A stretch of DNA of 64,000 bases from Aggregicoccus sp. 17bor-14. Its GTDB lineage: Bacteria > Myxococcota > Myxococcia > Myxococcales > Myxococcaceae. This document shows, piece by piece, positions 1,235-1,508 of the stretch. Every line of letters starts with the position of its first letter. Position 1 is the first letter of the stretch. The DNA lies in assembly GCF_009659535.1 (NCBI RefSeq), contig NZ_VJZZ01000012.1, positions 124,001 through 188,000 on the forward strand, written 5' to 3'. Under the pieces are notes generated by a model. It was not told the origin of the DNA, did no database searches, and worked only from the letters and a program-made list of their open reading frames with translations. The translations under genes were made by a program, and so were the position numbers.

Positions 1235-1285
1235 AAAAACGGGCCCGCTCCGCCTGCGTATCGCTACGCGAGAAGGAACGGGCCC
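1235..1285 (-). terminator. intrinsic terminator of the structured RNA
   Basis: An 11-bp stem is formed by GGGCCCGTTCC (1285-1275) and GGAGCGGGCCC (1251-1241), including one G-T pair. The loop contains a second small hairpin, GCGTA-GCGA-TACGC, with a GNRA-type tetraloop. The stem is followed by G and five T (1239-1235). This is the clearest intrinsic terminator in the window. Confidence 0.85.
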
Positions 1286-1323
1286 TTGCAGCTCTTTTGG
1301 CGTCAGCCTTCCGCTGGGCGGTC

Positions 1324-1374
1324 TTAGCGAACCGTGCCAGCGGAGGTGGACGCCTGACAGTTGCTATCGGTCAA
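1324..1374 (-). CDS. 16-aa micro-ORF with near-perfect ribosome site
   Basis: Translation from TTG at 1374 gives MTDSNCQASTSAGTVR and stops at TAA (1324-1326). GGAGG sits 7 bases before the TTG, as good a site as any in the window. The in-register ATG just upstream (ATG CCT TGA) would make only two residues. The peptide is polar, has one Cys, and has no membrane segment. The stop codon lies in the loop of a stable hairpin (1311-1343), and the first base of the start codon and the SD lie in another. That layout resembles leader peptides, but no run of a single amino-acid codon is present. Too short for family assignment; the strength of the signal is all in the translation site and RNA structure. 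Confidence 0.5.
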   Translation of the reverse strand: MTDSNCQASTSAGTVR

Positions 1375-1398
1375 GGCATCACCTCCTTTGCGGCCGCA

Positions 1399-1428
1399 TG
1401 TGTAACGGAGCGCGCCGCGCCGCGCCAA
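1399..1428 (-). promoter_or_regulatory. candidate sigma-70-type promoter for the structured RNA
   Basis: On the minus strand TTGGCG (1428-1423) and TACACA (1404-1399) are separated by 18 bases, placing a start near 1392-1394, just before the SD. The -35 and -10 boxes each match consensus at four or more positions in an otherwise GC-saturated region. Inference from sequence only. Confidence 0.45.
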
Positions 1429-1508
1429 TGAGTCGCGCGCGACCTGTGCGCCCGGCTACGCACAGGGCAGGCGGGCAGGCGTGCAGGGCGGTGTAGGTGG
1501 ATGGGCGC

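Follow-up and report, generated by a model that had tools for sequence, protein, structure and literature searches.

What kind of RNA is encoded on the minus strand of positions 1427-1235, where a promoter-like block, a 12-nt Shine-Dalgarno (SD) sequence, a TTG-started ORF of 16 codons, a hairpin region and finally a terminator with its T5 run follow one another in the 64-kb window (the whole stretch of 64,000 nucleotides that was analysed)? The answer that comparative sequence makes probable is a stand-alone translated small RNA that contains its own two-state (bistable) translation switch; the predicted transcript would here be about 155 nt long. All the features described below lie on the minus strand. 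The extended SD AAAGGAGGTGAT (1389-1378) is fully complementary to the 16S tail ATCACCTCCTTT, known from the 16S genes of relatives, which end in ...GGATCACCTCCTTTCT; it is invariant in 27 aligned copies of the locus and has no second exact copy in the 6.9-Mb genome. The ORF (1374-1324, TTG to TAA, MTDSNCQASTSAGTVR) begins 7 nt after GGAGG. The terminator (1285-1241) combines an 11-bp stem (1285-1275 with 1251-1241) and an inner hairpin with a GNRA loop (GCGTA-GCGA-TACGC), and is followed by its T5 run (1239-1235). The full complement of the 16S tail, the ORF and the terminator with its inner tetraloop hairpin had all been claimed by an earlier, sequence-only reading of this DNA, and all of them are borne out. 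The promoter-like boxes that it had also pointed to are present, as a -35-like TGGCGC (1427-1422) and a -10-like GTTACAC (1406-1400; (A/G)TTA in relatives) that form a TGGCGC-N~15-(N)TTA block with near-constant spacing in 49/49 main-clade copies, but comparison with the sigma-70 consensus gave no match. The RNA as a whole has a folding energy of -81.7 kcal/mol, compared to -59.1 +/- 4.5 kcal/mol in dinucleotide shuffles (z -5.0), and covariation across relatives is seen in 13/14 pairs of its terminator helix.

Comparison with the 4227 families of Rfam 15 gave 0 matches at the gathering cut-off in the 64-kb window, no relevant match in the RNA region even at E<=5 and, for 12 homologous loci, no match apart from an unrelated tRNA. 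Besides, no description of this RNA was found in the open-access papers searched on myxobacterial sRNAs and ribosome profiling. A DNA search of 60 relatives returned strong matches to the core in about a dozen Myxococcaceae genomes, and named genomes scanned for an exact 19-mer gave matches in records of Myxococcus, Corallococcus, Pyxidicoccus, Archangium, Hyalangium and Citreicoccus, together with one unrelated record; a copy is present in a record named Myxococcus xanthus. With a covariance model trained on 27 copies, exactly one copy per genome was detected in 84/96 Myxococcaceae (77/83 genomes of good quality), the matches at 30-70 bits, which were read singly, including copies of very different sequence. 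Broader models added one further genome of the family as well as divergent genuine members in two more families of the order (L126-L130), and no copy was found in the phylum sample beyond the Myxococcaceae and these two families, a sample in which weak homologues may have escaped detection. Four covariance-model matches (L131, L132, L140 and L141) proved false on inspection, viral contigs carrying the SD and TTG string turned out to hold unrelated gene starts, and looser SD-pattern scans of model-negative genomes gave no extra members among the loci examined. Conservation of the stems and of the ORF in relatives, on which the sequence-only reading had made its own proposal depend, is thereby established. 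On these comparative grounds, the locus is a predicted single-copy small RNA gene, near-universal in Myxococcaceae and previously uncatalogued, which occurs in a group that serves as a model for bacterial development and lies outside all the Rfam families compared.

Two hairpins had likewise been announced from the sequence; the pairing is there, but the hairpins are alternatives with one common strand. The complementarity of the ORF's own codons to the SD and the start codon had been overlooked at that stage. Strand 1 (GGAGGTGATGCCT, 1386-1374) extends from the SD into the start codon, of which it includes the first base. Strand 2 (AGGCGTCCACCTCCGCTGG, opening with AGGCGTCCACCTCC, 1355-1337) covers codons 7-13, of which about 7-11 make up an in-frame anti-SD, and is common to both helices, and strand 3 (CCAGCGGAAGGCTGACGCC, 1317-1299), located past the stop codon, competes with strand 1 for strand 2, as judged from duplex energies and shuffles. 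In the predicted folds, helix 1:2 closes the SD and the start codon while helix 2:3 frees both, the two helices being mutually exclusive.

Regarding the closed fold, 94.8% of the alignment cells of helix 1:2 are paired, and its duplex energy amounts to -24.0 kcal/mol, compared to -17.1 kcal/mol in synonymous recodings; in the g5/g16 clade, the complementarity of strand 2 to the SD is no higher than in such recodings. The initial base of the start codon has a pairing partner in each of the closed hairpins predicted (74/74), and it covaries with this partner (UA 26, AU 3, GC 2). Since strand 1 is nearly invariant, much of the helix changes one-sidedly, and its G-U variants fit the minus strand being the RNA. 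Over the whole structure, 146 double-change cells were counted against 45 +/- 6 after shuffling, an excess that collapses on sliding, that comes in large part from the terminator helix and that was obtained with an alignment (A4) fitted to the model structure.

The open fold is supported by a different kind of evidence. The 2:3 duplex has an energy of -36.9 kcal/mol, compared to -26.3 kcal/mol in shuffles, with 92% at p<=0.05. Two-sided covariation, sought in the close alignment A1, is limited to 3 pairs, with pair counts no better than those of shuffles, so that helix 2:3 rests mainly on complementarity and energies. In nearest-neighbour estimates that treat the closed fold as two separate domains, the SD-open and SD-closed states differ by a median of +1.3 kcal/mol (IQR -1.7 to +4.6), and shuffling of the strand-3 region alone raises this difference to a median of +13.2 kcal/mol, the balance being lost. 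Both folds are thus predicted to be balanced in nearly every lineage, even where the primary sequence is unrelated. The terminator helix is independent of the switch strands, both in individual folds and in the consensus. Taken together, the comparison between genomes establishes a conserved unit with a promoter-like block and a terminator, an in-frame ORF, a predicted competition of strands 1 and 3 for strand 2 and a predicted balance of energies; coding sequence, anti-SD and competitor strand would evolve together.

What is then the product of this unit? An ORF of 12-20 codons starting 7 nt after GGAGG exists in 114/114 family loci, with zero failures. It is found in every one of 74 distinct copies, with 13-19 codons, the same fixed spacing, mostly TTG as start (67, for 5 ATG and 2 GTG) and any of the three stops (TGA 44, TAG 21, TAA 9). 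The distance from the start to the in-ORF anti-SD is 27, 30, 33, 36 or 39 nt, in codon phase 0 in 73/73 scorable copies, and the loop length therefore varies by whole codons only. This constancy of frame, start, stop and spacing, the anti-SD codons being always in phase and a (T/A/I)-S motif being retained, speaks for a micropeptide of 13-19 aa as the effector, the RNA switch just limiting or timing its synthesis by a logic similar to that of type I toxin mRNAs. Against such a role, positions 1 and 2 of codons 2-6 and 12-16 vary freely, the conserved residues are precisely those encoded by the strand 2 codons, and the peptides, as judged by inspection of their list, are hydrophilic and rich in Ser, Thr, Ala and Lys, in contrast to membrane toxins. 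An excess of changes at third codon positions, sought outside the paired codons, was not found. It seems that selection acts on the ORF as a reading frame and much less on the peptide, which is poorly conserved outside the paired codons. A peptide effector is for these reasons a serious, though doubtful, rival. Because of this poor conservation, the act of translation, in terms of RNA conformation and fate, is favoured over the peptide as the output, which would then be the state of the RNA itself.

The bistable translation switch could operate as follows. The SD-closed 1:2 hairpin would form first, given that strand 2 is transcribed before strand 3. The open state may be reached when a 30S subunit gains access early to the very strong SD or, alternatively, when strand 3 invades later via a toehold on CCGC, beyond the SD-pairing part, and displaces strand 1. 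A ribosome reading the ORF would melt strand 2 and free strand 3, and its departure would let the RNA re-close, thereby resetting the system. By these steps, the RNA would gate its own ribosome loading. One may go further and imagine that this core RNA of the myxobacteria is a sensor of ribosome or initiation capacity, in which a super-strong SD is set against an in-ORF mimic of the 16S tail, free 30S subunits choose the fold, and translation of a dummy ORF, rather than its peptide, is the signal; this extension is put forward tentatively, as an unlikely one. In any case, tests of ribosome loading on a tiny ORF as a regulatory input in bacteria become possible with this RNA.

A peptide mRNA or a regulatory sRNA, two of the natures first suggested for the locus, both fit with a stand-alone unit, a conserved frame, covarying stems and the lack of an Rfam match. 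As a base-pairing regulator, the RNA would target other mRNAs through released strand 2, the anti-SD, or through strand 3, which is SD-like. Its stand-alone, sRNA-like organization with a terminator and the mimicry of the 16S tail by strand 2 and of an SD by strand 3 are in line with this function, but both strands are mostly paired in either predicted fold and the conserved frame contradicts a purely non-coding reading, which makes such a regulator distinctly improbable. Control of the ORF by a ligand or by temperature, as in a riboswitch or an RNA thermometer, has been considered as well, as access to the SD is set by two balanced folds. The RNA has no aptamer-like conserved unpaired core beyond the SD and ORF, though, and the closing helix, GC-rich and 13 bp long, is stable for a thermometer; a sensor of either type is very improbable.

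As for the genomic context, an ABC transporter gene, the RNA, a small-protein gene and pyrG follow each other on one strand and in constant order in every genome of the main clade. In the g7 clade, the RNA faces a convergent MATE-like gene, L094, L095 and L102 likewise have a convergent gene downstream, and the neighbours differ again in the g5/g16 clades. The convergent downstream genes of several lineages, the promoter block of the main clade and the covarying terminator together argue for a stand-alone gene rather than a leader. A cis-acting attenuator or leader of the small Cys-rich protein and then pyrG, the third nature that had been suggested and one that the main-clade gene order alone would permit, is largely refuted and scarcely credible, since synteny differs between lineages, several of them have a convergent gene at the end of the RNA, the terminator has no strand in common with the switch and a conserved promoter-like motif lies 3' of the terminator.

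The latter motif, CGGGAATG (1167-1160), is conserved between the terminator and the small-protein gene in main-clade loci, and most relatives have CCTGTTC/CGGTTCG some 15-20 nt further on; from its sequence, the motif looks like the own promoter of the small-protein gene, possibly for an alternative sigma factor. The small-protein gene itself (1122-853), between the RNA and pyrG, encodes an 89-aa Cys-rich protein (CPSYDTC...CRAC) that has no Pfam match and shows about 52-69% identity beside the RNA in main-clade genomes. In loci L092-L107 of the g5/g16 clades, the RNA has a second stable location, where it recurs beside a protein ending in GxGHGVGxCQxGA..RYFPD, SpoIID-like by eye, and beside an LPDDFRPAxGLSxGHAQ protein, hydrolase-like by eye. 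In the g7/g21 clades (L090, L108 and L109), a long hairpin, GGTGGCTGGAGGCGCAGTGTCTGGCCAC, makes up the terminator region and is near-alike in two genera, while terminators vary freely elsewhere; this long hairpin may have an added role. Finally, a record assigned to 'Comamonas sp. KCTC 72670' (L057, BNCN01000002.1) contains the RNA with the ABC transporter, small-protein and pyrG genes at Myxococcaceae-level identity, and looks mislabelled or contaminated.

How does the RNA compare with known systems? Type I toxin mRNAs, such as Helicobacter aapA and hok, contain metastable SD:anti-SD hairpins. The RNA shares with them a short ORF, competing folds, the format of a discrete small mRNA and a predicted sequestration of the SD by an anti-SD located within the message. 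It differs from them by a hydrophilic and weakly conserved peptide, where toxins of this type are hydrophobic membrane peptides, and by being a single-copy core gene rather than a toxin locus. In the leader-peptide attenuators of trp, ermC and catA, a short ORF similarly overlaps alternative hairpins with a terminator close by. Unlike these leaders, the RNA lacks a regulated downstream gene on the same transcript in several lineages, the neighbour being convergent in the g7 clade, L094, L095 and L102, and its terminator stands outside the alternatives instead of being exclusive with an antiterminator. Dual-function sRNAs (SgrS/SgrT, SR1/SR1P, RNAIII) have in common with it a small ORF in a structured RNA and a stand-alone transcript unit with, as predicted here, a promoter and a terminator of its own, whereas it is set apart from them by a conserved design with two states, in which codons of the ORF itself pair with the SD and start codon. 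Within the myxobacteria, the Pxr sRNA of Myxococcus, which has a sigma-54 promoter and is located between nla19 and a NADH dehydrogenase gene (PMC5568312), is also an intergenic RNA of ~100-150 nt with several stem-loops. Identity with Pxr was nevertheless rejected, as the RNA described here sits at another locus, flanked by the ABC transporter gene and by the small ORF that precedes pyrG, and carries an ORF. The RNA is filed as a new RNA family among small translated structured RNAs.
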